A model generated the notes under the pieces. The model was given only the letters and a program-made list of their open reading frames with translations, searched no databases and was not told where the DNA came from. A program made the position numbers and the translations under genes. Shown here piece after piece: positions 3,531 through 62,606 of a DNA stretch of 64,000 nucleotides (its first letter is position 1; each line of letters opens with the position of its first letter). The DNA comes from a virus. The stretch lies in IMG/VR virus record IMGVR_UViG_3300021957_000025, positions 1 to 64,000 of that record. One strand, written 5' to 3'.

Positions 3531-4259
3531 TTATCGGTTTCGGTAAGTTTCTCTATCAAGCCTTGGGCGTGCTTTTGGGTTAGACCCTTTCTTATAATGG
3601 TCAATAGGTTTTAGACCTTTGGACATATCGATTTGACTTGCAGCTTCAACGATTTTTATATTACCCGACAATGTTATTCTAGGAGTAGCACACTTGTTGG
3701 GTGATACTGCATGAAAGATTGTCGAAGGAAAGATGTATAATGTCCCTTTATCTCTAATTTGTGGTACATAGTCTCGATGATTTTCATAAGCTCCTAGGAG
3801 CTCTTTTAGACATGCATCGCTATTGGTTGCATTCCTATTCTTAAACACAATATGAGAGTTTCCAGTTTCATGTACATAACACCATGAGAAATCAGAACAA
3901 TTAGTACCTTGATGGTCATGGGAATCTTGAAATCCACCCTCATCGTATGTGTTAATCCAAGGCATTTCCATCATACTGGTAATGTCACACTTGGGCCCCA
4001 GTAGACTCAAGAACTGCGTTTGGAACGTATCATAGATGATATCTAATATTGGTGCATAATCTACTTGTAAATTTAGTTCAGAAGCTTGTGACGTTTTACA
4101 ACTACTGTATGTAAATTCTTCTTCACATAATTCATCTAAATTTTTATCCTCAAACCACTCATCAAATGGTGTTGGGTCTAGTTCTATTGCAGTTATAGGA
4201 ACACCCCATAACAAATCATCAGACCTTGAATTCTGAAAAATCTCTTTTTTGTCCATCAT
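3531..4259 (-). CDS. 2OG-Fe(II) dioxygenase-like protein
   Basis: 242 aa starting at MMDKKEIF, chosen because AGAGGAAG lies just upstream; an upstream in-frame ATG at 4292 is less likely. The jelly-roll metal site is visible: DSHDHQG near residue 109 (HxH/D pair), FPSTIFHAVSPN (distal His) and the 2OG-binding Arg in PRITLSGN. An IPTNxY-like segment WINTYDEGG precedes the first ligands. Proteins of this type are common in marine phages, and substrates are mostly unknown (proteins or small molecules). It overlaps the 3' end of the gp41 helicase gene, so it belongs to the uvsX-gp41 transcription unit. Confidence 0.7.
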   Translation of the reverse strand: MMDKKEIFQNSRSDDLLWGVPITAIELDPTPFDEWFEDKNLDELCEEEFTYSSCKTSQASELNLQVDYAPILDIIYDTFQTQFLSLLGPKCDITSMMEMPWINTYDEGGFQDSHDHQGTNCSDFSWCYVHETGNSHIVFKNRNATNSDACLKELLGAYENHRDYVPQIRDKGTLYIFPSTIFHAVSPNKCATPRITLSGNIKIVEAASQIDMSKGLKPIDHYKKGSNPKARPRLDRETYRNR

Positions 4260-5616
4260 TTCTTCCTCTATCAAACACTGGTACTGAATCATCGACGGCT
4301 GAGTCTATCAGTTCTTCTTGTGCTTCTTGTTCACAGTCGTAGAGTTTCATTCTACTTCTGTCGACACCAATAACAAACCTTTTGAATACGGTTGGGTCAT
4401 TGTATCTATTCTTTAATTGTTTGACCACCATTTGGTCTAACTCTTCTAATTCATCACTGGTAATCAGTGCAAACATGAAGTCTGCAGTCGCTGGTAATCC
4501 AAATGATTCTGAAGTATCAGTAAGTTCTACATCTGTAGAACCATATCCACTTCTTGTTGTTTGTGTTGCACTCATGATTGGTACATCAAACTCTACTGCA
4601 AGTCCTCTAAGTTCCTCTGCAATACTCTTTACTAGTGTATATGAGTTTGCACCACTGCCTGGCTTGACTCTTGCACTTGAACATATATTTAGATAGTCGA
4701 TATAAATCATATCGGGTTTGAAATCTTTCTTAATGTTCAGTTCTTGTAATAGATGTCGGAAGTGACCAACATGTGCTGATGCAGTAGGGTACTCTTTGAC
4801 AATCAATTTACCTTTGGTCTTCTCTTTGATTTTGTCAATCTTCTTATCAAATTGTGTCTTAGATAAGTCGGGCAAGTCTTTCATAGGGATGTTCAATGTG
4901 TTTGAATCTATCCTCTCTGCAATCCTTTCCTCTGACATTTCAAGTGTGATATAAAGTACATTCTTGTTCATCATCAAGTTGGCTGATGCCATGTGACACA
5001 TAAACAGTGACTTACCAACACCAGTACCAGCAAGACATATGTTTAGAGTCTTGTTGGGAAGACCACCTTTGGTAACCTTGTTGAAGTATTCCAAGTCAAA
5101 TGGAAGTTTTTCTTCTTCAGTGTGGTAGAATTCGAATCTATCATCTGAGTTTTCAATGAAATCGTGACCAATGTTAGTGTCAAACGATACAGATAAAGCT
5201 TCTTTTAAAAGGTCGGGTATTTCTCCAGTCGAACGTTGGGACTTTTTGTCGATGACTTCGATACTGTCCATGACTGCAATATAGATTGCTCTATCTTGAC
5301 ACCATTTCTCAGTTTCTTCTACCAACCATTCGGTTGGAGTCTCTTCACTGTCCTTACTAATACTATCTACAATAGTTTTTGCGTTCGATAACTGTCCGTC
5401 ATTAAGAGACGTATTGTTATCAAGATTTATGAGAAGTGCTTCCACTGTAGGTGGTTTAGTGTACTTATCGAAGTATGAAACTACTTCGTTGAACACAGTC
5501 TTCTCGTCCGACTCGGAGAAATACTCTTCCTTAAGGAATGGTATTACCTTCCTTGTAAAAGATTCACTCTGAACTAAGTTCTTCAGTATCGTCTGTTCTA
5601 GTCTCACTTGTTCCAT
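4219..5616 (-). CDS. 41: Replicative DNA helicase (DnaB family)
   Basis: 465 aa, similar to T4 gp41 in length (475). It would be the hexameric 5'-3' helicase that unwinds the fork and works with the primase. An N-terminal helical domain (1-150) is followed by the RecA-like motor, with Walker A GTGVGKS at 197-203, Walker B MIYIDYL near 305, and a [11 protein letters not shown]-contacting/sensor region near 350. It overlaps the UvsX gene by 53 bp, so the two are probably coupled. Confidence 0.93.
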
Positions 5617-7324: not shown

Positions 7325-7747
7325 TTATTTAGGATAATTGTGTCTGCGATGTTCCAACTTGGTATCGTAATCAATCATTGCCTTTTTGATTGCGTCTTCG
7401 GCAAGAACAGAACAATGAAGTTTAATCGGCGGAAGGTCTAACGCATCAGCGATGTCTTTATCCTTAATTAGTTTAGCTTCTTCGATAGTCTTACCCATCA
7501 TCATATCAACAAACATGGACGAACTTGCAATTGCACTTCCACATCCATAGGTTTTAAACTTTACGTCAATGATTTTTTCATCATCGTCCAGTAATAATTG
7601 CAATTGCATTACATCACCACAGGCTGGTGCGCCTGCAAGTCCTGTTGCAACATGTGGGTCGTCTTTGTCTAATCGACCTACGGAGTGTTTTTTGGGGTTC
7701 GCAAGTACTGCTTCAAATCTTTGAACTACTTCTTTTGAGTATGCCAT
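7325..7747 (-). CDS. iscU: IscU/NifU-like Fe-S cluster scaffold protein
   Basis: 140 aa. The three cluster-ligating cysteines are present: C43 in PACGD, C69 in YGCGSA and C112 in HCSVLAEDAI, with the assembly aspartate D45. The spacing equals that of bacterial IscU (C37, D39, C63, C106). It would take Fe and S from the host cysteine desulfurase and pass clusters to host or phage enzymes. The LPPxK contact for the HscA chaperone is seen as LPPIK. A late-type box sits 5 nt before the ATG. Confidence 0.9.
   Translation of the reverse strand: MAYSKEVVQRFEAVLANPKKHSVGRLDKDDPHVATGLAGAPACGDVMQLQLLLDDDEKIIDVKFKTYGCGSAIASSSMFVDMMMGKTIEEAKLIKDKDIADALDLPPIKLHCSVLAEDAIKKAMIDYDTKLEHRRHNYPK
7326..7333 (-). 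promoter_or_regulatory. Late-type box CCTAAATA, 5 nt from the nuclease ATG
   Basis: Spacing of 5 nt puts the predicted transcription start on the A of ATG 7320 if the T4 late geometry (-13 to -6) applies. The box overlaps the last codons of iscU. Confidence 0.5.
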
Positions 7748-12206: not shown

Positions 12207-13208
12207 TTAAAAGAAACCGTCCAGTGAACCTTTCTCTTCATACTTTCCAGCATGAGGGCCAATAGGATTCTCTGATTTTCCAGCTCTCCCTTTAGTTGCA
12301 ACATGTTCATCACAATATGCAACACATGATAATCTCACTCCTTCACCAGTGATAGGTGATACACCGTGCAATTCATTTGAATCTGCAATCAGTACGTCTC
12401 CATCATCTGCTTCAATAGCAATACCATATCTAGGGAAACATAAGTATGCACCCCCAAATTCTCCAATACGGAAGACACACATAGTTGTCATTCCGAACTC
12501 TAAATCTTTACCATCCAAATGTGCAGACATCTTTGCAGTCCCACCAGTTGAATATTTGTTTGCAGATAACGCTGTCATAGGAGAACCACCAATGTGGTAT
12601 TTCTCTTCTATACATTCATCTGCAAATGTTCTTTGCATATTCCATATCTCGGGAACTGCAGTCTTTAGTGCTTGTTCATTGACGTTAGCAATCTGTGATA
12701 GGATTTCAAACTTTTCTTTGTTTGCTTTCTTGTCCATCCATCCACTGCCCTTAATCATTCCTGTGAATCTGCCACGTTTATACCCGATTAGAACGGAATG
12801 AATCTCATTTGCTTCTGCAATACGATTGAACTCACCGTTCTTCTTAAGTGGATAATAACTGTTTGGAGTTCTTAGGACATAGTCTTTACCTTCGATTAAT
12901 CCTTTTGCTTTCATTTCTTCGTGGTTGATAGGCCCGGCTGCATTTGCTCTCATTGTAGATGTATCATCAATAGAAAACAATGTGTCTTTAATTAAATGAT
13001 ACTGGTCACCTTTGTATGCTCTCTTTACAATACATGCAAGTAGTGTTTCACCCATGAGTGTACCATGAGGCTTATAAATTTTGATGATGTCGTCTTTAAC
13101 ATCTATAGATGATATAACAGTATCGTAAGAATCTTCATTGAGATACTTACCATTCCATTTGTCGAAGGTTTCTTTAAACCCTAAGTCTGTCTTTGCAGTA
13201 AATTCCAT
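12207..13208 (-). CDS. TET/JBP-family 2OG-Fe(II) dioxygenase, likely 5-methylcytosine hydroxylase
   Basis: 333 aa. The C-terminal half matches the Tet_JBP fold: SAHLDGKD gives the HxD pair (H230, D232), GGAYLCFPRYGIAIEADDGD the conserved strand, DSNELHGVSPI the distal histidine (H281) and VRLSC the 2OG-binding Arg (R292). TET/JBP enzymes oxidise 5mC or T in DNA. The gene overlaps the 3' end of the C5-cytosine methyltransferase by 28 bp, so methylation followed by hydroxylation of phage cytosines is the natural reading. The N-terminal 200 residues are unassigned and may bind DNA. Confidence 0.82.
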   Translation of the reverse strand: MEFTAKTDLGFKETFDKWNGKYLNEDSYDTVISSIDVKDDIIKIYKPHGTLMGETLLACIVKRAYKGDQYHLIKDTLFSIDDTSTMRANAAGPINHEEMKAKGLIEGKDYVLRTPNSYYPLKKNGEFNRIAEANEIHSVLIGYKRGRFTGMIKGSGWMDKKANKEKFEILSQIANVNEQALKTAVPEIWNMQRTFADECIEEKYHIGGSPMTALSANKYSTGGTAKMSAHLDGKDLEFGMTTMCVFRIGEFGGAYLCFPRYGIAIEADDGDVLIADSNELHGVSPITGEGVRLSCVAYCDEHVATKGRAGKSENPIGPHAGKYEEKGSLDGFF

Positions 13209-14458
13209 GGTTCTAATATTTGTCCTTTGATGTTTTCAACTAAGTAGTACATACATAATGGTGCTACCATCAATCCAATTCTTGCACCCTTGTCGTTGTA
13301 ATCACCAGTCATTTTATAATCATTTGGTAGAGTCATTAATCTCACCATTTCTTTTGGTGTGTAAATTCTTTTACCACTATGGTGGAAATGATTACCACCC
13401 ATAAACTTTGGTTGACAACCCTGTTCAGTTAATGAATGAGCTGGTAGATGTTTAGGAACTATTCTTGACATGTAGTAAGAATGCTTTTCATCTTCGGGTT
13501 GTATGTGTCCGTTCTTAATCTGTTCTTGGAACCATGGTTTAACAATGTGGTCTCCAATAGATGTGTATGCTTGATTGTCTCTTTGTTTAAGAACTTCTGC
13601 AACTCCAGTACATGGGCCACAACCTTCAAACTTCTCATCGGGATGCACATCGAATCCATTTACCCAGTGTCCTTTTGATGATTCATCCATTGCAGTTTCT
13701 AAATATTTTGCATCTGTAATATTTTCTTCATCAGTTTCTAAGTCTGAAATTGCATCTTCAATAGATGCAAATTCTTTTACTGGGTCGGGGAAGACTGAAG
13801 ACATACACATCCAAGGCATTCCAATACCTTCGAGTACATCATCACGTACACCAACCATGAATACTCTTTCTCTCTTCTGAGGTACACCATGCTGATGACC
13901 CTTCATGATTTTCCAAGTCACTGAGTATCCTAGTGCTTCAAAATCGTTTACCATCTTGTTTAGATGGTCTCTTGCATAGTCCATTGAAAGACCTTTCACG
14001 TTCTCACATACTATAACTTTAGGCATTAACCCTTCGGCAATCCTAATCATTTCCCATGTTAGGTCTTCAATGTTCTGTTGTTTCATACCATATGCCATCT
14101 TCTCTTGGTTCCATCCTTCTTTCTTGGAACCTGCCATAGAAAATGGTGGACAAGGTGGTGACCCATCCATGATATCTAATTCGTATTTCTTAAGTCCACT
14201 AAGCTCCATGATACCTTCTGCAGTGACTTCTTTGATGTCTCTACATTCGTGTACTGTGTTAGGGAAGTTTTCTAGGTAGGTGTCAACATGTAACTGTTGG
14301 AATTCGTTCATGTAACGAACGTCACCACCTGCTAGTTTGTAACCACATGAAGAACCCCCACCGCCTGCAAAGAAAGTAATGTAATTAAACTGTTTACTTT
14401 CACTGTTACGGTGAAGGTCTTCTAGGTTGTATTGAAAATATTTATTATCACTCATCAT
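13181..14458 (-). CDS. C5-cytosine DNA methyltransferase
   Basis: 425 aa. Motif I FFAGGGGSSCGYKLAG near 29-44 (SAM site); motif IV GSPPCPPFS with nucleophile Cys103; motif VI CENVKG near 151-156; motif VIII QKRERVFMVGVR near 194. The variable target domain (about 210-330) is followed by the closing motifs X/IX near GARIGLMVAPLC. It transfers a methyl group to C5 of cytosine in a short DNA motif. Its coupling to the TET-type gene suggests it makes the substrate for hydroxylation rather than only protecting against restriction. A -10 TATAAT lies 6 nt before the first ATG. Confidence 0.93.
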   Translation of the reverse strand: MMSDNKYFQYNLEDLHRNSESKQFNYITFFAGGGGSSCGYKLAGGDVRYMNEFQQLHVDTYLENFPNTVHECRDIKEVTAEGIMELSGLKKYELDIMDGSPPCPPFSMAGSKKEGWNQEKMAYGMKQQNIEDLTWEMIRIAEGLMPKVIVCENVKGLSMDYARDHLNKMVNDFEALGYSVTWKIMKGHQHGVPQKRERVFMVGVRDDVLEGIGMPWMCMSSVFPDPVKEFASIEDAISDLETDEENITDAKYLETAMDESSKGHWVNGFDVHPDEKFEGCGPCTGVAEVLKQRDNQAYTSIGDHIVKPWFQEQIKNGHIQPEDEKHSYYMSRIVPKHLPAHSLTEQGCQPKFMGGNHFHHSGKRIYTPKEMVRLMTLPNDYKMTGDYNDKGARIGLMVAPLCMYYLVENIKGQILEPWNLLQRQT

Positions 14459-15641: not shown

Positions 15642-16001
15642 TTATCTTTTATTGCAATATTTTTTTGCATTACTTATTTGTTGAACATTATTTACAACCA
15701 CTACAGACATAAGAATGTTCATCCAGTCGAATGTATCTGAAGTCAATCTGTCTTCTCTTCTATCTATTTCTATAGCAGGTAATAGAATTGCAGTCTTAAC
15801 TGCGAACATTTTACCTACTGAAGGAGACTCTCCTACAAGTGGATTTAGTTCTTTCACACAATCGTATTTAAGTCCACGATATGTTGTGTAGATATCTGCA
15901 AGTTGTAGGGTATAGAATAAAGTCCAATCAAACGTATTAGGTAATTCAGATGGTGTAAACTGTAACTGGTTCAGATTTTCCTTTGACTGTGATTCTATCA
16001 A
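15642..16001 (-). CDS. DUF5658-like small membrane protein
   Basis: About 119 aa, start uncertain. The frame is open upstream to 16253 but there lies inside the cyclase gene; I use the TTG at 16001, and CTG near 15970 is also possible. FDWTLFYTLQLADIYTTYRGL, then KELNPLVG, then a hydrophobic stretch VKTAILLPAI and another near MNILMSVVVVNN match the DUF5658 pattern (membrane helices around an ELNP motif). It is the last gene of the curli/cyclase operon. Function unknown. Confidence 0.5.
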   Translation of the reverse strand: MIESQSKENLNQLQFTPSELPNTFDWTLFYTLQLADIYTTYRGLKYDCVKELNPLVGESPSVGKMFAVKTAILLPAIEIDRREDRLTSDTFDWMNILMSVVVVNNVQQISNAKKYCNKR

Positions 16002-17787
16002 CTTCAGAGAATGCTCTAGATGGACACTGTCGATATGTTGCTTCGCCCAACAGCACGTCCACCCCATCATAATTTCGTGTTTGTCCTTCGAGTCTAGCAC
16101 CAAGGTTGACGGCATCTCCAATGACGGAATAGTCAAATCTAAGTTCTGACCCCATGTTTCCAACGATGCACTCACCAGTGTTAATACCAATGCCAACATT
16201 GATAGGGGGAAGACCGAGTGGTTTGAGTTCTTCATTGAGTTCCTTGGTAGCAATTAGTATTTCTTCTGCAGACTTGACTGCCATCTCGGCATGGTTCGGA
16301 CAGTCCATTGGAGCATTCCAAAAACTCATTATACAATCGCCCATGTATTTGTCTATAGTTCCACCATTATTTAGAATTATCTTAGTCTGTAAGTCCAAGA
16401 ATCTGTTAATCAATTCTACCAATCCTTCGGGGTCATCATTCTTCATGAACGCTTCACTTATTGGGGTGAATCCACATATGTCCATAAACATGAAGGTAAG
16501 TTCCTTTCTATCTCCACCAAGTTTCAATTTTGATGGGTCTTTTTGGAGCTCTTCAATCATGTCGGGGGATAAATACTTTTGGAACTGCTTCTTAATCTGT
16601 TGTTTTTCTTGATATGTAATGTAGTACTTGTTGAAAGAAGCATGTCCGAACACCACCAAGGAGGCAATCGATGAGAAGAAGGTATCGAAAAGAACGAGCT
16701 CTGAAGTCCAAATATAATAACTCCCGCCAATCTGGCATCCTACAAGCAATAGACTCCCTACCCCCGAAAGAAGTGTGGGAGCTTTGTAGACCAAACCCAA
16801 TATCGTTATTAGGACTAACAGAAGAAGAACGGATTCTAAGGATTCAAGATAGTAGGATTGTTGTATTTGAACTCCTGTCAAAACGGTTTGGAGCAGGTTT
16901 GCTTGCACTTCGTGGGGATACATTACTCCCCTTGGGGTTGAAACTGGATTATTCAAACCCTCAGCTGTCAGACCCCATACAAGAATCTTATTCTCAAAAT
17001 TAGATTCGGGTAGGTCAACTGCAGATATTCTATGGAATTTATTCCAATAGGAAACCATTACGTCTGAAGTTGGAGTTGTTGTAATAGGTTTGTCTCTCCC
17101 CATTCTAACCCATTCAACTCCAGCTTCGGGTGTAATCTTAGTTTGATAAGACGGCTGGTCACGTAAGGCACGTAATGTCTCTAAAACTAGAGATGGATAT
17201 ACCTGTCCGTTTGCAGTAACCATAAGGGGTACAGACCGCGTAGTCCCATCAAAATTAGGTGTCCCAGTGACAGCTGGAGTAGCCGTTACAACTCCTATAC
17301 CGTAAGTGTTTTTAGCAAGTATTGGAATGGGTTGGACTATCCCAGTGAAATTCCACAACCAATTCTTTGCATCTCCACCACCAAAAGTAGAGTTACCTAC
17401 GAATGGTAATGCACCTGTATCTTTTTGAATTGTTGGAGCAGCTCCGAGGATTGTAAGTCTATTGACTAACCCCTCAGCAAATAGATTGTCTTGTGAAGGG
17501 TCTCTATCACTTTCCGAAAAAAGAGTAGAGAACAAATGAGTGTTAGAGTAATGAGTGTTAAGAAGAATGTCACGGTAAATACCACGGCGAATAGGATACT
17601 GTCCAAAAGTCTCAAGACTCTTCTCATCAATATCAACAAGTACGATGTCATCGACATAGAATTCACCCTGTTGTTGGTGAAGGTAATCAAACCACGACCA
17701 TGAGATGTTTTCAACAAAATAAGGATTCCATATCTTTAGAGCAAAGATTGCTACGATTGTTATTAATACTGATTTCCACGAAAACAT
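15946..17787 (-). CDS. CHASE2-domain class III adenylate/guanylate cyclase
   Basis: 613 aa from MFSWKSVLI, right after the upstream stop (TAAAATG); an ATG at 17850 is possible but lies in the preceding gene. One N-terminal membrane helix, a periplasmic CHASE2 sensor domain (about 25-310, with DDIVLVDIDEKSL and YPIRRG), three membrane helices (about 315-390), then a cyclase domain. Catalytic residues look complete: metal Asp in FMFMDICGFT (near 431), KYMGDCIMSFW (near 480) with the second Asp, and NLGARLEGQ with the Asn/Arg pair (near 560). It should make cAMP or cGMP in response to a periplasmic signal. Such a cyclase is very unusual in a phage. Confidence 0.88.
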   Translation of the reverse strand: MFSWKSVLITIVAIFALKIWNPYFVENISWSWFDYLHQQQGEFYVDDIVLVDIDEKSLETFGQYPIRRGIYRDILLNTHYSNTHLFSTLFSESDRDPSQDNLFAEGLVNRLTILGAAPTIQKDTGALPFVGNSTFGGGDAKNWLWNFTGIVQPIPILAKNTYGIGVVTATPAVTGTPNFDGTTRSVPLMVTANGQVYPSLVLETLRALRDQPSYQTKITPEAGVEWVRMGRDKPITTTPTSDVMVSYWNKFHRISAVDLPESNFENKILVWGLTAEGLNNPVSTPRGVMYPHEVQANLLQTVLTGVQIQQSYYLESLESVLLLLVLITILGLVYKAPTLLSGVGSLLLVGCQIGGSYYIWTSELVLFDTFFSSIASLVVFGHASFNKYYITYQEKQQIKKQFQKYLSPDMIEELQKDPSKLKLGGDRKELTFMFMDICGFTPISEAFMKNDDPEGLVELINRFLDLQTKIILNNGGTIDKYMGDCIMSFWNAPMDCPNHAEMAVKSAEEILIATKELNEELKPLGLPPINVGIGINTGECIVGNMGSELRFDYSVIGDAVNLGARLEGQTRNYDGVDVLLGEATYRQCPSRAFSEVDRITVKGKSEPVTVYTI

Positions 17788-17788
17788 T

Positions 17789-18058
17789 TTATGAGAATTT
17801 CTTCTGTACCCATTTAAAGACTGTATAAATGGATAGACCATAGAATGCAAGTACAGACATGGGCAATGCTATGTACGCAAGTTCCCATGGTGATAAAAAC
17901 AGAACTTCCCAACCAAAATTTATAGCTGCCTCAACGTCACCCAAAGGTTCAAGTGTTGCTGGCAATGCAATTTCATTCTCTTCAAAGAGGTCTAGTATCT
18001 CATTAAACTGTTCTTCAGTATAACACTCGTAAAACTCGGGTGGGCATTCTGCGTTCAT
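17789..18058 (-). CDS. Small protein with one C-terminal membrane helix
   Basis: 89 aa from MNAECPPEFYECY. The ATG overlaps the stop of the curlin-repeat gene (ATGA) and has CAGGA upstream. An acidic N-terminal half (about 1-50) precedes a membrane helix (ELAYIALPMSVLAFYGLSIY) and a short basic tail. There is no signal peptide or CsgE signature. Coupled between a curlin-like gene and the cyclase, it may be an accessory of either. Function unknown. Confidence 0.6.
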   Translation of the reverse strand: MNAECPPEFYECYTEEQFNEILDLFEENEIALPATLEPLGDVEAAINFGWEVLFLSPWELAYIALPMSVLAFYGLSIYTVFKWVQKKFS

Positions 18059-18693
18059 TCCTGTGTTACCGATAATGTACAACCATTAGAAGTCTGACAG
18101 TTTTGTGTTAGATTATAAATTTGATTTGTGGAACTATCTTGCAATAGGTTTAAAGTTGTTGCATAGTTTCCTTGAAGTGTTATTGTTGAAGTGTGACTTC
18201 CACTACCTTTCTGTGTAACATTAGTGACGGAGTTATCGCTGTTTCCATAATAGTATGTGGTTGAAGTGTGACTTCCACTACCCGATTGAGATAAGTCGTG
18301 GTCTACACCATCGACATGAACGTCTATGTTGTGTAGGTGTGTTCCATTTTGATACACATCCACCTCATTATTATTACCCCATATGTGTCTACCATATGTT
18401 GCACCACCAATCTGTTCTACGTTTTCAGTATTATTGGTTCCATCTACATCACCACCCCAAGCCTTTCCCGACCCCCAATAAGAGACCCAAGAAATGGAAT
18501 TACCATTACCTGTTTGTGTAAAGTTGAATGTGTTGCCACCGTGAGCAAAAGAGAAATCAACTTTGTTGTTGTAACCTGTTTGAATTATAGAGAGGTCTAC
18601 ATCACCACTCTCAACTTGTTCAACATGGACATGATTTTCGTCTGCCCATGTCGACAAGCTTATCAATAAAGTTAATAATAAACTTTTCTTCAT
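18055..18693 (-). CDS. Curlin-repeat secreted protein (CsgA/CsgB-like), second copy
   Basis: 212 aa with signal peptide MKKSLLLTLLISLSTWA. Curlin-type repeats follow the pattern hydrophobic-x-Q-x-G-x-x-N: SIIQTGYNNKVDF, NFTQTGNGNSISW, DLSQSGSGSHTST, NVTQKGSGSHTST and TITLQGNYATTL. These repeats stack as beta-strand pairs in amyloid curli fibres. The middle is rich in H, N and G. A 23-bp direct repeat in the DNA (18185-18207 and 18260-18282) underlies two of the repeats. Export would use the CsgG/CsgF pair encoded just upstream. Confidence 0.82.
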   Translation of the reverse strand: MKKSLLLTLLISLSTWADENHVHVEQVESGDVDLSIIQTGYNNKVDFSFAHGGNTFNFTQTGNGNSISWVSYWGSGKAWGGDVDGTNNTENVEQIGGATYGRHIWGNNNEVDVYQNGTHLHNIDVHVDGVDHDLSQSGSGSHTSTTYYYGNSDNSVTNVTQKGSGSHTSTITLQGNYATTLNLLQDSSTNQIYNLTQNCQTSNGCTLSVTQE

Positions 18694-18860: not shown

Positions 18861-19988
18861 CTAGTTTGTTTGTGTGATAGTAATATTTATAGACGAACCA
18901 TCACCCACTTGTATTAGTGACTCCTTTTCGTCTGTTATGGTTCTAATGGATGCTTGTGCAAACATTGGTAATCTAATGGAAATAACTCCATTAACTTCCC
19001 TGTAGAACCATATCTGGCCCAGACCCTTGTCTACAATTGTATTGTATTGAGTGTCTTTGTCAAACCCCGAACCTGTTCCTTGAATACGAACACTTCCGAA
19101 TGCTTGTCGTTCTCTATCGATACCAACCTTACGGTCAATCTCTAAGACAACGTCCAGTAAATCTTGTAAGAAATCGACATCTAATAAATCTCTATCGAGT
19201 TCTGTATATTCTAATTCATCATCTTCGAAATAGTCTTCTTCTAAATCATTGAACTCTAGGAAGTCTACGTCTAGAATATTACTACTATCATTCTCTGAAC
19301 CACTTTCTTCTGATATCTGTTCTGTCACCTCTTCGGGTGGAGATACAATGAAGTAGTTATCAATTAGATTGGGTGTAATCCCATTCACTACAACTGGTTT
19401 TGTAGGTGAATCATCATAAGTTGAAACCATTGTTGTCTGATATGCTTCATTCATGGTCACCGAACCACCAGCATTACTTACTACAATTTCTCCCGAGGGA
19501 GCACCCCATTTATCGGGGAGCAGAATTATCAATGACCTTCCGATTTCATCAATACTAGTTGTGAAATCTGTGCCTCTGACTGTTATCTGTGCAGTAGGTG
19601 TAGTTATATTTATGTTCGCTTTGTTTATTTTACCACCAAAACCCGAAGCAAATCGAGCGGTGCCTTGTGCCATTCTTATGGCCATCTTTGACTTGGATGG
19701 GTCGGGGTCATAGTAAACCTCGTCTATCCAAACTTTGGAGTGTTCTGTTAAGTCTAGTTCCTCGTCTCCTTGGAACTGAATTTTCATTCTTCCATTCTGA
19801 GTTTGTGCTGTATCATACATTAGCACTTCAGGCATCTCAGATGCTGAGATGACGGTAGTCTCACCGTCTCTCTGCAACCCAGCGTATCCTGTTTGTTCTG
19901 TAATCTCACCTATTGGTTCACCATGAAGTGAACCAATAAGTAAAAGATTAATCGTTATCGTCTTTTTGAACGATGTCAATATTTGCAT
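18861..19988 (-). CDS. Exported FecR-domain protein
   Basis: 375 aa with an N-terminal hydrophobic export signal (TITINLLLIGSLHG). FecR-type beta domain at about 25-190: a DSKVWIDEV-like strand (HSKVWIDEVYYD), RMAQGTARFASGF, and ITTPTAQITVRGTDF, the signature of FecR domains. This is followed by a very acidic linker (about 220-275, LDVDFLEFNDLEEDYFEDDE) and a C-terminal beta region. It lacks a membrane anchor and anti-sigma region, so it is a periplasmic or surface protein. In bacteria, FecR-domain proteins often sit next to CHASE2 cyclases, as here. The start overlaps the curlin-like gene by 41 bp. Confidence 0.82.
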   Translation of the reverse strand: MQILTSFKKTITINLLLIGSLHGEPIGEITEQTGYAGLQRDGETTVISASEMPEVLMYDTAQTQNGRMKIQFQGDEELDLTEHSKVWIDEVYYDPDPSKSKMAIRMAQGTARFASGFGGKINKANINITTPTAQITVRGTDFTTSIDEIGRSLIILLPDKWGAPSGEIVVSNAGGSVTMNEAYQTTMVSTYDDSPTKPVVVNGITPNLIDNYFIVSPPEEVTEQISEESGSENDSSNILDVDFLEFNDLEEDYFEDDELEYTELDRDLLDVDFLQDLLDVVLEIDRKVGIDRERQAFGSVRIQGTGSGFDKDTQYNTIVDKGLGQIWFYREVNGVISIRLPMFAQASIRTITDEKESLIQVGDGSSINITITQTN

Positions 19989-20676
19989 TAGAAGTCACGA
20001 AAGTCACATCGATAATACCACTACAAGATTGTCCAGTTGGGCATCCTGTATCTGAACCACTCTTCTGAATGATGTCGATATCATTACTTGAACCAGTTAA
20101 GATTGCAGTAATGCTGTTATCAGTTGCATCTGATTGATTAGTGTTAATGTCATTAGATGAACCTGTAACAGTCCAGTTCCAAACAGCATTGTCACTATCT
20201 ATCTTAGTAGTGAATATGTTTGATGAACCAGCAACTACTAAATCCCAGTTAAGGTATTCAGCACTAGCATCTGCACCAATATCAATATCAAATGTATTAG
20301 ACGAACCTGTAACAGTACCTAACATATTTAACTCGTCAGCACTATTTTGACCAATGTTCCAGTCCATAACATTTGAATCACCAGTGAAGGTGAGGTTTAT
20401 AGTTGCTGAGTCAGCAATCATAGGCCCGAATAGTTTGTTACTGTCTCCAAATTGGACAAGTGTAAACGTATTAGATGCACCAGTTAAAACCATATCAGCA
20501 GATGTTCCCGAGAAATCATCTAGACCAACTTTGTTTCCATATCCTTTCTGTGTAAAATCTAGTACTAAACCAGTACCACTTTGATTCAACCATATTTCAT
20601 TGTCGTCTGCTCCAGCAAATGCTGTAGTAGAAAACCCTAATGTTAAACATAATGTAATGAATAATTTATTCTTCAT
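19948..20676 (-). CDS. Curlin-repeat secreted protein (CsgA/CsgB-like), first copy
   Basis: 242 aa with signal peptide MKNKLFITLCLTLGFSTTAFA. Repeats of the curlin type: DFTQKGYGNKVGL, TLVQFGDSNKL, DWNIGQNSAD, and many TGSSN/TGASN turns spaced about 22 residues apart, ending with DIIQKSGS and DIVQKDDND. It should form a beta-solenoid amyloid-type fibre subunit. It overlaps the CsgG gene by 11 bp, so production of subunit and channel is coupled. The C-terminus has a CPTGQSC pair that could form a disulfide. Confidence 0.82.
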   Translation of the reverse strand: MKNKLFITLCLTLGFSTTAFAGADDNEIWLNQSGTGLVLDFTQKGYGNKVGLDDFSGTSADMVLTGASNTFTLVQFGDSNKLFGPMIADSATINLTFTGDSNVMDWNIGQNSADELNMLGTVTGSSNTFDIDIGADASAEYLNWDLVVAGSSNIFTTKIDSDNAVWNWTVTGSSNDINTNQSDATDNSITAILTGSSNDIDIIQKSGSDTGCPTGQSCSGIIDVTFVTSNANIDIVQKDDND

Positions 20677-21574
20677 TTTGTTTATCCTCTATTTGATGTC
20701 CCTCGTTTCTTCCATGAGTTCCGTGTGGATGTCGATGACCATCTTTAATTACCCAAAAACTTCTATCGTGTCCTTGGTATATTAGTTCTAAGACAGCTAG
20801 TTCAATTGCAGAACGAGTTGCTTTCGTAACTCCTTCATTCGCTGCTATACCGTCTTCCATTTCCACCAACTTCGTATCCATATCCACGAAGCGGAATACA
20901 TCATAACCACCGCCTGTACTTAAAATCGTCTTTGTAGTCTGTACATTTAGTAAAATTTCACCAGTTAAAGTTGATATTCCTCTCAACGATACCGTGACAA
21001 CATCTCTACGATAGGAAACACTTGAACCAATACCTAAGTATCTTGCGCCTCGCCCACCACTTTCAATGTTTGTATCATAACCAATTATCCCACCGTCAAG
21101 TAGGATACCAGCAAACAAGAGAGGTTGAATGCCCGTTGGAGCATCCTCATTACCTTCCTGTCTTGCAAAGTCTTCTCTAGTAGAACGAATGATTTGTCTC
21201 TCTCTTACAAGTGCGTCTAAACTTGTACGTTCTACTACTCTAAACCATTTACCTTTTCCAGCAGTCTTAAGTGCATCAATTAAAAATGATTCTGCACCTT
21301 GTGTGACTGCAGTAGAGAATGATGCAATGTTATCCATTCTCTTCCTTTGTCCTGTCTTATCTAAGAACCCATACACTGCAACTACTGGCATATTGTCAGC
21401 AGGTGGTAAGTCTGCAAGTTCTTGGTACGTAGGTATATTTACTACTTCTGCCTGTTCGACACATTCACCTACTCGTTCCATAACCAATGATGTACAGGAA
21501 TCCGTCATGCTTGGTATGGCAGCACACCCGCTGATGAGCAAGACTAACAGTCCTACTATTCCTAAGTTTTTCAT
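20666..21574 (-). CDS. csgG: CsgG-type outer-membrane curli secretion channel
   Basis: 302 aa (bacterial CsgG about 277). Lipoprotein signal with lipobox LISGC (Cys17). Family signatures: VAVYGFLDKTGQRK, FRVVERTSLDALVRERQIIRS, LLFAGILLDGGIIGYDTNIESGG split over two stretches, and RRDVVTVSLRGISTLTGEIL. CsgG forms a nine-fold pore in the outer membrane that exports curli subunits. The C-terminus has a His-rich extra tail (DGHRHPHGTHGRNEGHQ). It follows CsgF with no gap. Confidence 0.95.
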   Translation of the reverse strand: MKNLGIVGLLVLLISGCAAIPSMTDSCTSLVMERVGECVEQAEVVNIPTYQELADLPPADNMPVVAVYGFLDKTGQRKRMDNIASFSTAVTQGAESFLIDALKTAGKGKWFRVVERTSLDALVRERQIIRSTREDFARQEGNEDAPTGIQPLLFAGILLDGGIIGYDTNIESGGRGARYLGIGSSVSYRRDVVTVSLRGISTLTGEILLNVQTTKTILSTGGGYDVFRFVDMDTKLVEMEDGIAANEGVTKATRSAIELAVLELIYQGHDRSFWVIKDGHRHPHGTHGRNEGHQIEDKQNEE

Positions 21575-22033
21575 TTAAAAACTACCAGTACCGATTGGTA
21601 TATCTAAAGTTGTAGTTGTTCCATCACTTGCTACAATGGTTAGACGAATGAATTCCACACCGTCTTCTCCAACCATCTGTTCGTATGTAACTGTATTACC
21701 TTCTATAGTGAAGACACCGTATGTTACAGCTTCACCGTTAGAGAACATATTCTCTACTAATTGTTTTGCAAGTTGAGCATAGATTCTGCTCTCTACGTTC
21801 CTTAAAAATTTGGCAAGTGTCGTGTTATTTGCTTCTCTATCTGCCTTTGCAATTGCATCTTCAACGTCTTGTGCTATCTTATCACGTCTTGATTTCTCTT
21901 GGTTCTCAATGGTAAGATAATGTGCTGATTGACCTACCCCATTAAAACTAGGACTCTTAAATCCAAATACAATTTCATCTGCATTTACAGACATACACAT
22001 CATCATTAAAATTATACTACTTACTATTCTCAT
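21575..22033 (-). CDS. csgF: CsgF-type curli assembly protein
   Basis: 152 aa, signal peptide MRIVSSIILMMMCMSVNA. The mature N-terminus DEIVFGFKSPSFNGVGQS is the conserved CsgF segment that plugs into the CsgG pore and directs fibre nucleation at the cell surface; in E. coli CsgF this is the FQFRNPNFGGNP region. A C-terminal beta domain follows. It overlaps the preceding membrane protein gene by 17 bp and is directly followed by csgG. CsgE, the third curli factor, is not seen. Confidence 0.9.
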   Translation of the reverse strand: MRIVSSIILMMMCMSVNADEIVFGFKSPSFNGVGQSAHYLTIENQEKSRRDKIAQDVEDAIAKADREANNTTLAKFLRNVESRIYAQLAKQLVENMFSNGEAVTYGVFTIEGNTVTYEQMVGEDGVEFIRLTIVASDGTTTTLDIPIGTGSF

Positions 22034-22286
22034 TTTTAGCTGCCTCTTTCTTAGCGTTCTCTTTATATTCGAGAACTACGTCTACCTTTTGTTGGAGACG
22101 AATCAAATCTTGGTCTAACATTCTGACTTGGTCGATGACTTTTATTAGTGCAAAATGTTGCTTCTCAATTTCGGGTTCTAGCTTCTCACCTACAAACCAC
22201 CAAATGTAATAGATGAAATAACCCAACCCAACTGCCATAACGATTGGAAATCCGTAATCACTTATTACCGCTACAAGACTTTCCAT
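22017..22286 (-). CDS. Membrane protein with coiled-coil tail
   Basis: 89 aa from MESLVAVISDYGFPIVMAVG. The ATG overlaps the stop of the tiny gene before it (TAATG). One membrane helix (about 12-32) is followed by a long charged coiled coil (EIEKQHFALIKVIDQVRMLDQ...). Similar in layout to the 98-aa protein at 22.4-22.7 kb, and probably a distant paralogue. It could act as a holin-like pore or a scaffold for the curli machinery; neither is shown by the sequence. Confidence 0.6.
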   Translation of the reverse strand: MESLVAVISDYGFPIVMAVGLGYFIYYIWWFVGEKLEPEIEKQHFALIKVIDQVRMLDQDLIRLQQKVDVVLEYKENAKKEAAKNENSK

Positions 22287-22393
22287 TAGATGAACAATAA
22301 CCCTAACAGAAATCCTATGTTGAGACCCAGTGAACACATGAGAACAAAGTCCCTAGTAAATGTGTATTCAACCATTACTATTTCATTTCTCAT
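22286..22393 (-). CDS. Tiny membrane peptide
   Basis: 35 aa, MRNEIVMVEYTFTRDF then a hydrophobic helix (MCSLGLNIGFLLGLLFI). Both ends share bases with neighbours: ATG over the stop of the previous gene (TAATG) and its own stop over the next ATG (TAATG). This tight coupling is the main reason to call it a gene. Confidence 0.5.
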   Translation of the reverse strand: MRNEIVMVEYTFTRDFVLMCSLGLNIGFLLGLLFI

Positions 22394-22689
22394 TAGTCAC
22401 GTCTCACATCTAGTTTTCCATCTTCTATAAAATTTTCTGCACGTGCTACACGTTCTATATCGGGACGGAGTTCCAATGCAGCGGAAACTAGCATGTCAAT
22501 CTTAATCATTTCATTTGACATGGTTCTTGCACGGTTCTCTAGTGAGTTGCAAAACATTGTTAACGTTTTAATGTCGTCAACTACGCCTTCTAGAATTTGT
22601 TTGATGACTATGAAGATAAAAAATCCCATCACAAGGCTCCCTGCAATCGGGGCTCCCACTTCACCTATCAAAACAAATATATCATTCAT
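22393..22689 (-). CDS. Membrane protein with coiled-coil tail, first gene of the curli operon
   Basis: 98 aa from MNDIFVLIGEVGAPIAGSLV, with one membrane helix (about 10-32) and a helical charged tail. The frame is open further upstream, through the terminator, so the internal ATG is used. A late-type box lies exactly 5 nt before this ATG. No family is recognised. Confidence 0.65.
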   Translation of the reverse strand: MNDIFVLIGEVGAPIAGSLVMGFFIFIVIKQILEGVVDDIKTLTMFCNSLENRARTMSNEMIKIDMLVSAALELRPDIERVARAENFIEDGKLDVRRD

Positions 22690-22694
22690 GCAAT

Positions 22695-22702
22695 TATTTA
22701 TT
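22695..22702 (-). promoter_or_regulatory. Late-type box AATAAATA driving the curli/cyclase operon
   Basis: Lies 5 nt from the ATG at 22689 and 26 nt past a strong terminator. This marks the start of a new transcription unit that reaches at least to the cyclase, since I see no terminator in between. Confidence 0.55.
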
Positions 22703-22728
22703 CTTTTCACTTTCTTATACGCCAAAAA

Positions 22729-22750
22729 AAGGGACTCTTTTGAGTCCCTT
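22729..22750 (-). terminator. Rho-independent terminator
   Basis: On the minus strand a 9-bp stem AAGGGACTC / GAGTCCCTT with an AAAA loop is followed by a run of T. It ends the unit containing the SAP-like membrane protein gene at 22.8-23.0 kb. Confidence 0.85.
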
Positions 22751-22769
22751 CTCAAGACATCGTAAAGAG

Positions 22770-39304: not shown

Positions 39305-40758
39305 TTTAAATCGAACTGCCTTATCTCGTATGTAAAGTTTTCTTCGTTGTATATATTTATACGTTCTTTAAGGTGATTGAGAGTATGATTGTTACATTGT
39401 AAGTCATCTGATATATCAAATAACCTCATCTCTGTTTTACCGTCAGCCTTACGAAGTCCTCTACCTATAGATTGAAGGTTTCTGATTCGACTTTTACTTG
39501 GGGATGCGAAGACAATATTGTCTATTCGTTTGATGTTAACACCTGTAGAGAAAGTTCCGTATGATGCTAGTATGACGTTATTGTCACTTCTCTCTACTAT
39601 TTCTCTAACTGCTTCTCGGTCTTCTACATCTGTCCCACCATTGACATAGTGGAGCGTTCCCTTTCTTCGTGTGACCATGGGGTTGAACATTTCCCATAGT
39701 GGTTGTCCATGTTTCTCAATGTATTGAAATAGTACTAGGGTATTACCTTTCAGTGACCCCACAAGATTAGTTATGAAATGATTTCTTTCTTGGTGTGATA
39801 CTAGATAATCCATCTCATCTTGGTATGACATTTTTTTCTGTTTAGTATGACGAAGTATGACACATTCTATTTTTAAATTTGCAATCGTTCCCGAATCCAT
39901 CAACTCCTTTGTGCTTATGACCTTTTTGACAGGGCCGAATAAACCTTCTAGTTGTAGTCTGTGTACTTCTGTTCCGTCCAGTGTACCAGTACATCCAATA
40001 CGTACAGCAGTAGTCTTCATCTTTTCAAGTATACCTTTCAGTACATTTGCTTTGAATAGATGAGCTTCGTCTCCTATTACAACATCGAATGATTGCATTA
40101 CTTCCTTTGGTGCTTTACTGAATGACTGCCATGTGGTAACTGTGATTGGTGCATCGAAAACTTCTTGACCATGATAGATTTTACAGATAGGGTCTTTGTA
40201 TCCGTAGTCTTTAAAATCCTTAGTCATCTGTTCCACTAATGATGTGGTGGGTACGATGATGACTGTCTTAGAGTCATAGTATCTTGCAAGTAAATAAATG
40301 ATTAGAGACTTACCACTTGCAGTGGGTGATAATAATAGTTGCCTACCATATTGAACTGCAGTTTTAAAAGCTTCTAACTGGTAATCTCTTGGTGCAAATG
40401 GAAGGTCTAATATACTAATCCAATCTTCTATTGATATCGGCCCGTTGTTTCTTTCCTTCTTACCAATAACATCTTGAATACCTTCAAACTCGTAACCTCG
40501 TTCTCTGCAGAACTCATCTACGTATGGAAGTAACCCAATATAAATCTTGTGTGTTTTGATTGAGAAAAGATATACTTTACCGTCCCACCATTTGTTTTTA
40601 TAACTTGGCATGAACTTTGCGTTCGGTACAGCAAAGGAAAAATAGTCGTGAAGGTCTTTGGCTAGACCATCATCACAGTCTACCCTCATGAAACATTCGT
40701 CCACCTTTGATACTGTGACTTTCATTTTATCTGTAAGGATGTCCACAAAACCAGCCAA
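39301..40758 (-). CDS. uvsW: Recombination DNA-RNA helicase UvsW
   Basis: 485 aa (T4 UvsW 503). Superfamily 2 motifs: SPTASGKSLII near 142 (Walker A), VIGDEAH (II), GCTGTLDG (III), and LQSIGRGLRKADGK (VI, arginine fingers). It unwinds branched DNA and R-loops and helps move replication from origin- to recombination-dependent. The N-terminal 100 residues match the small DNA-binding domain in T4 UvsW. Confidence 0.94.
   Translation of the reverse strand: MAGFVDILTDKMKVTVSKVDECFMRVDCDDGLAKDLHDYFSFAVPNAKFMPSYKNKWWDGKVYLFSIKTHKIYIGLLPYVDEFCRERGYEFEGIQDVIGKKERNNGPISIEDWISILDLPFAPRDYQLEAFKTAVQYGRQLLLSPTASGKSLIIYLLARYYDSKTVIIVPTTSLVEQMTKDFKDYGYKDPICKIYHGQEVFDAPITVTTWQSFSKAPKEVMQSFDVVIGDEAHLFKANVLKGILEKMKTTAVRIGCTGTLDGTEVHRLQLEGLFGPVKKVISTKELMDSGTIANLKIECVILRHTKQKKMSYQDEMDYLVSHQERNHFITNLVGSLKGNTLVLFQYIEKHGQPLWEMFNPMVTRRKGTLHYVNGGTDVEDREAVREIVERSDNNVILASYGTFSTGVNIKRIDNIVFASPSKSRIRNLQSIGRGLRKADGKTEMRLFDISDDLQCNNHTLNHLKERINIYNEENFTYEIRQFDLK
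39354..39361 (-). promoter_or_regulatory. Late box TATAAATA in the 3' end of uvsW
   Basis: Perfect match 49 nt before the ATG of the 153-aa gene. Could drive that gene late; also possible chance match in coding DNA. Confidence 0.35.
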
Positions 40759-41434
40759 CTAAACTGGTTCGGGTTCCACTGGTGACAGGCGTCACTTGAT
40801 GGTGTACAAAAGATGGGAACAATAATAATGACCCCTTTTGTTTTGCAGAGTTAGGAATCTGACGGTAGTAATCCCTCATGTCTCTAGTGTAATCTTTTGA
40901 AGTAAGTGTGTCCTTTGAACGAACATCTTCTATCCATTGAAAGTTACCACCCTCGTATTCATCGGGGTCTGTCAATTGTATGGACATACTTAACTTTCTA
41001 ATCATACCATTGTTTTCATACGGTACGTCACCAGCATCTTGATGCCATGTGTAAAACCCACCACGTTCACCTTGTTGTGCATGATATGTTGTATGTTGAA
41101 GTGGTTCAGCATATTCTATGTCGACATTCCATCCACTCTGTTTAGAACCCATAGTAACAGCTTGTTCTATCCTTGTCCAAACGTCTCCTAGAAGCTTTCC
41201 ATGGTCTCCATGTAACCATCTAATATCTGATGCTCTTATGTTATCAACGACTTTACCACCTGCTCCATTGGCTCTTTTATTGATTACCTCAGCATCGGGG
41301 TCTAATCCTACTCTTCCACCTTGCCCTACTGCACCTTCCTCTAAATCGAATTCTGCAGCTTTACCATTAATAAATTCAACTTCATCTGAAGTTAAAAGTG
41401 AAGGGTATGTGAATAGGTAGTTACGTAAATTCAT
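40727..41434 (-). CDS. PKHD-type 2OG-Fe(II) hydroxylase
   Basis: 235 aa from MNLRNYLFTYPSLL, the ATG being fused to the uvsY stop (TAATG). Signature GGFYTWHQDAG (HxD), EYEGGNFQW, LLLFPSFVHHQVTPVTSGTR (distal His and 2OG Arg). PKHD-family members occur in T4-like cyanophages; substrates unknown. Confidence 0.85.
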   Translation of the reverse strand: MNLRNYLFTYPSLLTSDEVEFINGKAAEFDLEEGAVGQGGRVGLDPDAEVINKRANGAGGKVVDNIRASDIRWLHGDHGKLLGDVWTRIEQAVTMGSKQSGWNVDIEYAEPLQHTTYHAQQGERGGFYTWHQDAGDVPYENNGMIRKLSMSIQLTDPDEYEGGNFQWIEDVRSKDTLTSKDYTRDMRDYYRQIPNSAKQKGSLLLFPSFVHHQVTPVTSGTRTSLVGWFCGHPYR

Positions 41435-41877
41435 TATTGACCTGCCATGAATTTTCTCCAATCAATCGTGTTCTTGATTGTTTGGTGTCTCCATGTGATG
41501 TTCTGCATACATTCTTTAAGGAAGTCTACAGTAACTTTTAGATACTCAATCTTTGCATTGAGTTGTTGTAAATCTGTATCGGCATTGAAAAAGATGTTCA
41601 TATCATTCTTCATAATTTTAAGACCATCGAATGGGTCGGGGTTCCAACCTAGTTCCTTTATTCTATCATCATCCATTTTACCATTGAACCACAACCACTT
41701 ATCTTTAAGTAAAGTATTGTATTGTTCTTGGTATCTTTTGTGAACTAGTATTTTAGTAGTGAGTAAGTCTTGGTATTTTGCATGAAGCTTAGGTACTTCT
41801 AAGGATGCAGTATCCAATTCAATGTCATCTATTTCACAGTCACTTGCCCACTGGGCTTTCAATTCTTCTAAAGTCAT
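41434..41877 (-). CDS. uvsY: Recombination mediator UvsY
   Basis: 147 aa (T4 UvsY 137). Helical protein with VPKLHAKYQDLLTTKIL, LKDKWLWFNGK and the C-terminal RHQTIKNTIDWRKFMAG, the conserved T4-type pattern. It loads UvsX on ssDNA bound by the single-strand binding protein. The -10 TATAAT lies six nt before its ATG. Confidence 0.9.
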   Translation of the reverse strand: MTLEELKAQWASDCEIDDIELDTASLEVPKLHAKYQDLLTTKILVHKRYQEQYNTLLKDKWLWFNGKMDDDRIKELGWNPDPFDGLKIMKNDMNIFFNADTDLQQLNAKIEYLKVTVDFLKECMQNITWRHQTIKNTIDWRKFMAGQ

Positions 41878-56623: not shown

Positions 56624-57334
56624 CTAGTTCAGTATGGGGTTGCCTTTCGAGTCTAATTCGAAAACAAATTCATCTTCCGCTGGTAATTCCTGCCAAGGCT
56701 TTCTTGCGTCTGCAGAGTCACCAATGTATTGTACCCTACAATTAAAGGAGATTGAGTATCGGTCTTTGTCTGTGGGATTAGGTTCTACCATATGCATTGC
56801 ACCACTAGGAAACATTACGAGTCTCCCAGTTTCTGGCTTGTATCCTATACTCTCTTGATGTCTTTGTACTGACGGATGGTCTGCAACTATCTTAGCATCG
56901 GTATTAATCATACTGAGGTCTCCCTCGTCACCGTCACCATGTACATAAAACACTCCACTATACCAACAACCATTATGTAAATGAGGTGTGTTCCATGCCC
57001 CTTTATCATTAATGTTTGCCCAAGTATTGTCTATACAAATCTGAGCTGCAGAGGGGTTGACCCCAAAATACAATTGTACTTCTTCTCTCAATGCAGTTTG
57101 TATGCATCTAATAATCTTTGCAAAAGACGGATGCTGTTCTATTCCATCGTGAGACTGCCATCCAGTGTATCTGTTTGATATCTGTCTCCCCTTTGGGTCT
57201 CTTTGTCTCCACGCATTCATCTCATCTCTAAGAAAATTAAGATATTCGATGTCAACAGCACCGTTACCATACCTTTCTTTATCAAGTAGGTCTCTTTCAA
57301 ATATTACTGTGGGGAATGCTAATCTAACACTCAT
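56624..57334 (-). CDS. 2OG-Fe(II) oxygenase (putative, tail-region copy)
   Basis: 236 aa. TPHLHNGCWYSGVFYVHG gives the first metal ligands (HxH type), GRLVMFPSGAMHMVEPNPTD the distal His, and RYSISFNC the 2OG Arg. N-terminus LAFPTVIFERDL is typical of the PF13759-like phage group. Overlaps the DUF6065-type gene by 4 bp. Confidence 0.82.
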   Translation of the reverse strand: MSVRLAFPTVIFERDLLDKERYGNGAVDIEYLNFLRDEMNAWRQRDPKGRQISNRYTGWQSHDGIEQHPSFAKIIRCIQTALREEVQLYFGVNPSAAQICIDNTWANINDKGAWNTPHLHNGCWYSGVFYVHGDGDEGDLSMINTDAKIVADHPSVQRHQESIGYKPETGRLVMFPSGAMHMVEPNPTDKDRYSISFNCRVQYIGDSADARKPWQELPAEDEFVFELDSKGNPILN

Positions 57335-62559: not shown

Positions 62560-62606
62560 CTGTAACTCCTGTTAATTTAGTATTATATCTTTTCATAGTC
62601 ATCGGC

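Follow-up and report, generated by a model that had tools for sequence, protein, structure and literature searches.

Type VIII secretion (curli-type) cassettes with a FecR gene and an adenylate cyclase gene have been described in podo- and myoviruses (PMC9599517, 2022), and curli genes are also discussed in PMC7029224 and PMC9004378. The accessible part of PMC9599517 reads FecR as an iron regulator, already proposes that FecR and the cyclase act in regulation, and describes the same pelagiphage system as the one analysed here. The cyclase of phage HTVC008M (AGE60353.1) has the same gene order and domain layout and is 40.5 % identical over 97 % of the protein, but belongs to a separate clade and has no overlapping DUF5658-like gene downstream. 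The cyclase of Methylophilales phage Melnitz (QZI94833.1) also has the same gene order, including FecR, and is 34 % identical; it differs in a longer C-terminus and, across its lineage, in an Asn to Ser and a Ser554 to Asp replacement. Sinorhizobium meliloti CyaD1 (SMc02176), likewise an adenylyl cyclase of the CHASE2 receptor type, also lies beside a FecR-domain protein (SMc02177), but is bacterial and has its Clr receptor present; without CHASE2 it is constitutively active (PMC5498481). Pseudomonas aeruginosa CyaB (3r5g) and Spirulina CyaC (1wc1) share the fold and the adenine-type pocket, but carry other sensor domains and are not phage proteins.

The window, a 64,000-nucleotide stretch of a virus record, contains the following features of such a cassette.

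22393..22755, minus strand: small membrane protein 2, conserved upstream of csgF (relatives in HTVC008M and Melnitz)
22017..22337, minus strand: small membrane protein, conserved upstream of csgF (relatives in HTVC008M and Melnitz)
21575..22033, minus strand: CsgF (PF10614, E 1e-13)
20666..21574, minus strand: CsgG outer-membrane secretion channel (PF03783, E 3.4e-48)
19948..20676, minus strand: curlin-like protein 1 (synteny and similarity; Curlin_rpt E 0.69)
18861..19988, minus strand: FecR-domain exported protein with acidic linker and C-terminal beta domain (PF04773, E 4.7e-10; model and fold matches)
18055..18693, minus strand: curlin-repeat protein 2 (weak Curlin_rpt, E 0.022; syntenic relatives in HTVC008M and Melnitz)
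17789..18058, minus strand: small single-helix membrane protein, stop one base before the cyclase ATG (ORF position, relatives)
15946..17787, minus strand: CHASE2-class III cyclase gene, 613 aa (Pfam, conservation in three viral clades, AlphaFold model)
16795..17760, minus strand: CHASE2 sensor domain, residues 10-331 of the 613 (PF05226, E 2.6e-28, 99.7 bits)
15958..16506, minus strand: class III cyclase catalytic domain, residues 428-610 (PF00211, Guanylate_cyc, E 3e-15)
15642..16235, minus strand: overlapping gene in frame +1, predicted signal peptide and DUF5658-like, 197 aa (stop-free frame, conserved ATG, hydrophobic N-terminus, DUF5658)

CsgF, CsgG, the curlin-like protein and FecR lie upstream of the cyclase in the order known from the pelagiphage cassette. 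The curlin repeats of the window proteins fall under the Pfam cut-off, and a Pfam search with the small membrane protein at 17789..18058 returned no family. Searches of phage records with tblastn found cyclase relatives in HTVC008M and four Melnitz strains, where the gene is annotated as a cyclase and adjoins csgF, csgG, curlin and FecR genes, and three IMG/VR queries returned hundreds of related stretches with the cyclase. Upstream DNA of 6.5 kb or more was available at 96 distinct viral loci, and 92 of these have the order CsgF, CsgG, curlin, FecR, cyclase. Each of the three viral clades and the bacterial set forms a separate group in the tree. The existence of the cyclase and its cassette is not news, because both are published and widespread; the first-pass annotation had called such an enzyme unusual for a phage, whereas the cassette is standard in pelagimyophages and the window cyclase is a further case of a described system. 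Judged from gene order alone, control of the curli genes by the cyclase, also suggested there, is plausible. Cyclase matches in Acinetobacter 'phage' records were set aside as bacterial contamination, being surrounded by bacterial isc and mfd genes. A promoter scan of the cyclase region gave hits at chance level, and an Rfam search of the window gave no family. The second curlin protein of HTVC008M (L002:7670-8992) has an extra PA14 domain (E 2.7e-6) that was not seen in the window protein.

The CHASE2 cyclase gene proposed from the open reading frame is real, as judged by the Pfam matches to both domains; the PF00211 scores of 60.6 and 56.7 bits exceed the curated cut-off of 21.9 and place the enzyme in class III. 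Its ATG at 17787 lies one base past the stop of the upstream reading frame, and was preferred over a TTG at 17850 because the longer version would overlap that frame; CHASE2 residue numbers are shifted by 21 relative to the TTG-start version. The AlphaFold model (mean pLDDT 88) has the layout of a CHASE2 receptor: a single membrane helix at the N-terminus is followed by a loop domain of 290 residues, by three further membrane helices (the four helices span residues 4-20, 312-335, 338-363 and 370-402) and then by the cyclase domain. CHASE2 domains are generally periplasmic, and the predicted topology agrees with the earlier proposal that the sensor would face the periplasm. The modelled catalytic domain matches CyaB (3r5g) with Z 26.8 and CyaC (1wc1) with Z 26.5.

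The active-site residues were located in alignments of relatives, at first 81 viral proteins and then 217 distinct ones in three clades.

16480..16482, minus strand: metal-binding D436 codon (alignment of relatives)
16336..16338, minus strand: metal-binding D484 codon (alignment of relatives)
16348..16350, minus strand: adenine-specifying K480 codon (alignments and comparison with PDB cyclases)
16126..16128, minus strand: adenine-specifying S554 codon (alignments)
16105..16107, minus strand: transition-state N561 codon (alignment of relatives)
16093..16095, minus strand: transition-state R565 codon (alignment of relatives)

Within the window clade D436 is kept in 84/85 proteins, D484, K480 and S554 each in 85/85, and N561 and R565 in 84/84 of the proteins in which that region is present, so the complete catalytic set (D436, D484, N561, R565) seen in the first-pass annotation is confirmed as intact and conserved. 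All six residues are essentially invariant in the HTVC008M clade as well. The nucleotide pocket is intact in the model and of the adenine type, like those of CyaB and CyaC: the Lys plus Thr/Ser pair of class IIIb enzymes is present as K480/S554, invariant in two viral clades, and the bacterial relatives have Lys at the first position and Ser or Thr at the second. ATP is the predicted substrate because the guanylyl cyclase Cya2 (2w01) has Glu where this cyclase has Lys. Of the two products named at the outset, cAMP or cGMP, the residue pair thus speaks for cAMP and against cGMP. In the window and HTVC008M clades, conservation along the protein is highest in the catalytic domain; pairwise dN/dS there is about 0.05-0.18, dS being near saturation for many pairs. 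On these alignments the cyclase is predicted to be catalytically competent and to make cAMP from ATP.

The Melnitz lineage (L003 and L226-L305) departs from this pattern, as 60 of its 61 cyclases carry both N561S and S554D. The loss of the Asn appears to be derived there, because L277, an early branch of the lineage, keeps the normal residues at 554 and 561 and all 21 bacterial rows of the alignment retain the Asn. The cassette operon is still present in these phages, which indicates that catalysis may be dispensable in the Melnitz lineage.

In the window clade the cyclase gene appears to share its 3' end with an overlapping gene for a second protein, whose first 290 nt lie inside it. Frame +1 was scanned over the final 300 nt of the cyclase gene at 78 distinct loci of this clade. 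It has a mean of 0.36 stops and is free of them in 76 %, whereas recoding the same protein by the codon usage of the clade gives an expectation of 7.4 stops and no stop-free case; in the other two clades observation and expectation match closely (9.5 vs 11.1 and 7.2 vs 7.1). In 73 of the 78 loci an ATG is placed 280-320 nt ahead of the end of the cyclase gene, in 51 with a Shine-Dalgarno-like motif; it opens a reading frame that is usually 196-208 aa long. The N-terminus encoded by this frame has a mean hydrophobicity of 2.35, higher than the 1.27 of recoded controls, and exceeds their 95th percentile in 44 % of cases. DUF5658 matches the second half in 35 of 42 relatives (best E 2.1e-6). Within the overlap, the third positions of the cyclase codons show no uniform drop in conservation, so the open frame is kept more clearly than its sequence is conserved. 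From these sequence features the frame is probably a conserved gene for an exported DUF5658-like protein.

Full-length bacterial relatives of the cyclase are mostly alphaproteobacterial, with about 29-37 % identity. A FecR gene lies within 3 kb of the cyclase in 22 of 80 such relatives, a minority among contigs of which many are short, and no CsgG, CsgF or curlin gene was found near any of the 80. FecR matches number 92 in about 108 Mb across 21 of these bacterial genomes, which corresponds to roughly 0.007 chance neighbours per locus, or 0.6 in 80 loci, against the 22 seen; the two counts were made with different FecR profiles, and some of the genomes are close relatives and hence not independent. 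Many of the FecR proteins encoded beside bacterial cyclases are adhesin-like, secreted and longer than 1,000 aa. The FecR-cyclase couple therefore looks like an older signalling pair, because bacterial CHASE2 cyclases often stand beside FecR without curli.

In fold comparisons the modelled FecR domain of the phage protein is similar to the cell-surface signalling domain of PupR (Z 15.9) and, at residues 23-123, to a domain that anchors an adhesin at the cell surface (5ix9, Z 8.7). The beta domain starts about 25 residues from the N-terminus in the model, after one hydrophobic helix, so that the protein lacks the N-terminal cytoplasmic anti-sigma domain of a canonical FecR; for this reason the iron-regulatory interpretation given in the accessible part of PMC9599517 was not adopted. 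Instead, FecR is proposed as the input to CHASE2, on the grounds of the bacterial pairing, the PupR- and adhesin-like folds and the lack of room for an anti-sigma domain. Against this counts that SMc02177 is dispensable for perception of the plant signal in S. meliloti (PMC5498481).

With about an even chance of being right, our best explanation is that the enzyme is a class IIIb inner-membrane adenylyl cyclase forming the output of a FecR-CHASE2 signalling pair carried with the curli-type (type VIII) cassette. The input to CHASE2 would be the exported FecR, either by itself or bound to the CsgG/CsgF channel and the curlin-like subunits; once the periplasmic domain was switched, the cyclase would make cAMP from ATP, and the cAMP would signal, in the course of infection, how far the surface structure is assembled or anchored. 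The receptor searches described below and the active-site changes of the Melnitz lineage count against this explanation. An alternative, which we consider fairly unlikely, makes the enzyme a passenger or scaffold whose CHASE2-membrane part matters while catalysis is weak or unused. The derived active-site changes of the Melnitz lineage favour it, as does the failure to find a cAMP receptor in the searches described below, but the invariant active site and best-conserved catalytic domain of the window and HTVC008M clades argue the other way. That the enzyme makes cGMP or a different cyclic nucleotide, for example to confuse cyclic-nucleotide defence, is very unlikely. The nucleotide specificity of class III cyclases can be altered, and the failure to find a cAMP receptor would suit this reading too; against it stand the invariance of K480/S554 in two clades, the Ser or Thr of the bacterial relatives and, for defence in particular, the cassette, in which no link to defence genes was seen.

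Bacterial adenylyl cyclases typically signal through cAMP to CRP-type regulators, and the reprogramming of host transcription that the first-pass annotation raised as a possibility could run through a CRP- or Clr-type protein, as with CyaD1 and Clr in S. meliloti (PMC5498481). Receptors were sought in 60 sampled genomes of 0.8-1.6 Mb from a family which we take to be SAR11, reached through a 16S probe sequence that 21 of the 60 carry. PF00027 occurs in two of them (one FNR-like protein in the first, two proteins of about 1,000 aa in the second), and in none of 18 phage records, among which HTVC008M and Melnitz are complete. The same search does find cNMP-binding proteins in other small low-GC marine genomes (L342-L347, SAR86), a point in favour of a CRP-type reader. 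PF00211 also occurs in two of the 60, but both matches were rejected as host genes because they sit on phage contigs with the same cassette, so the family appears to have no chromosomal class III cyclase. These csg-FecR-cyclase contigs (L391, L392) are apparently phage DNA that was binned together with host sequence; the gene set of one is podovirus-like. No class III cyclase occurs in two 1.3-Mb genomes, labelled OM43-like because of a match of the methanol-dehydrogenase type. Each of the two has a single PF00027 protein, and inspection of one showed a membrane protein instead of a regulator (L394:986-2224, YihY-like with a C-terminal cNMP-type domain, adjoining a methanol dehydrogenase-like gene). 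The capsid protein of the window is 67 % identical to that of Melnitz and 64.5 % to that of HTVC008M. Signalling through the usual receptor is thus quite unlikely, with the proviso that SAR11 may not be the host of this phage. The same near-absence of PF00027 proteins, set beside an intact enzyme under selection, makes it possible, if doubtful, that cAMP acts on some other receiver of host or phage origin. This would be compatible with FecR-CHASE2 signalling and concerns its output side; the argument is one of elimination, and carries the same proviso about the host.

More tentatively than the signalling pair itself, and at somewhat less than even confidence, we suggest that these phages bring a complete cAMP-making sensor to hosts without a class III cyclase or CRP-type receptor, which would imply an undescribed receiver, and that in the window clade part of the cyclase gene is used a second time, to encode the signal peptide and the N-terminal half of another exported protein of the cassette. 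The accessible part of PMC9599517 mentions neither hosts without cyclase or CRP nor the active-site loss in Melnitz, and likewise neither FecR-cyclase pairs without curli nor the overlapping gene. The missing receiver matters in that a second messenger would be under strong purifying selection while the best-known host group apparently lacks its standard maker and reader. The pairing of FecR with CHASE2 in bacteria without curli gives a concrete and testable sensor hypothesis, distinct from the published iron-regulator reading.

Some further features of the window and its relatives were recorded. A curlin-like pattern first seen in 119 of 140 FecR tails was discarded as circular, having been derived from those tails. 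The curlin half-repeat of the literature occurs in 7 of 29 non-redundant tails, none of them in the window clade, compared with no occurrence elsewhere in FecR and 0.45 % of shuffled tails, and Pfam Curlin_rpt matches 1 of 100 tails; a curlin-like FecR tail is kept as a mere hint. One of the alignments (A4) included an erroneous row, L146. Tandem repeats of the QEPNIR/SPFTY type with 24- and 132-base periods extend over 61117-63734 (minus strand), encoding repeat proteins in more than one open frame. A NifU-type iron-sulfur scaffold protein and several 2OG-Fe(II) oxygenases are encoded at 7325-7747, 3531-4292, 56624-57334 and 40727-41461 (minus strand). At 12207-14458 (minus strand) a C-5 cytosine DNA methyltransferase (E 9e-49) adjoins a TET/JBP-type oxygenase (E 1.6e-12), and the two are likely a cytosine hypermodification pair.
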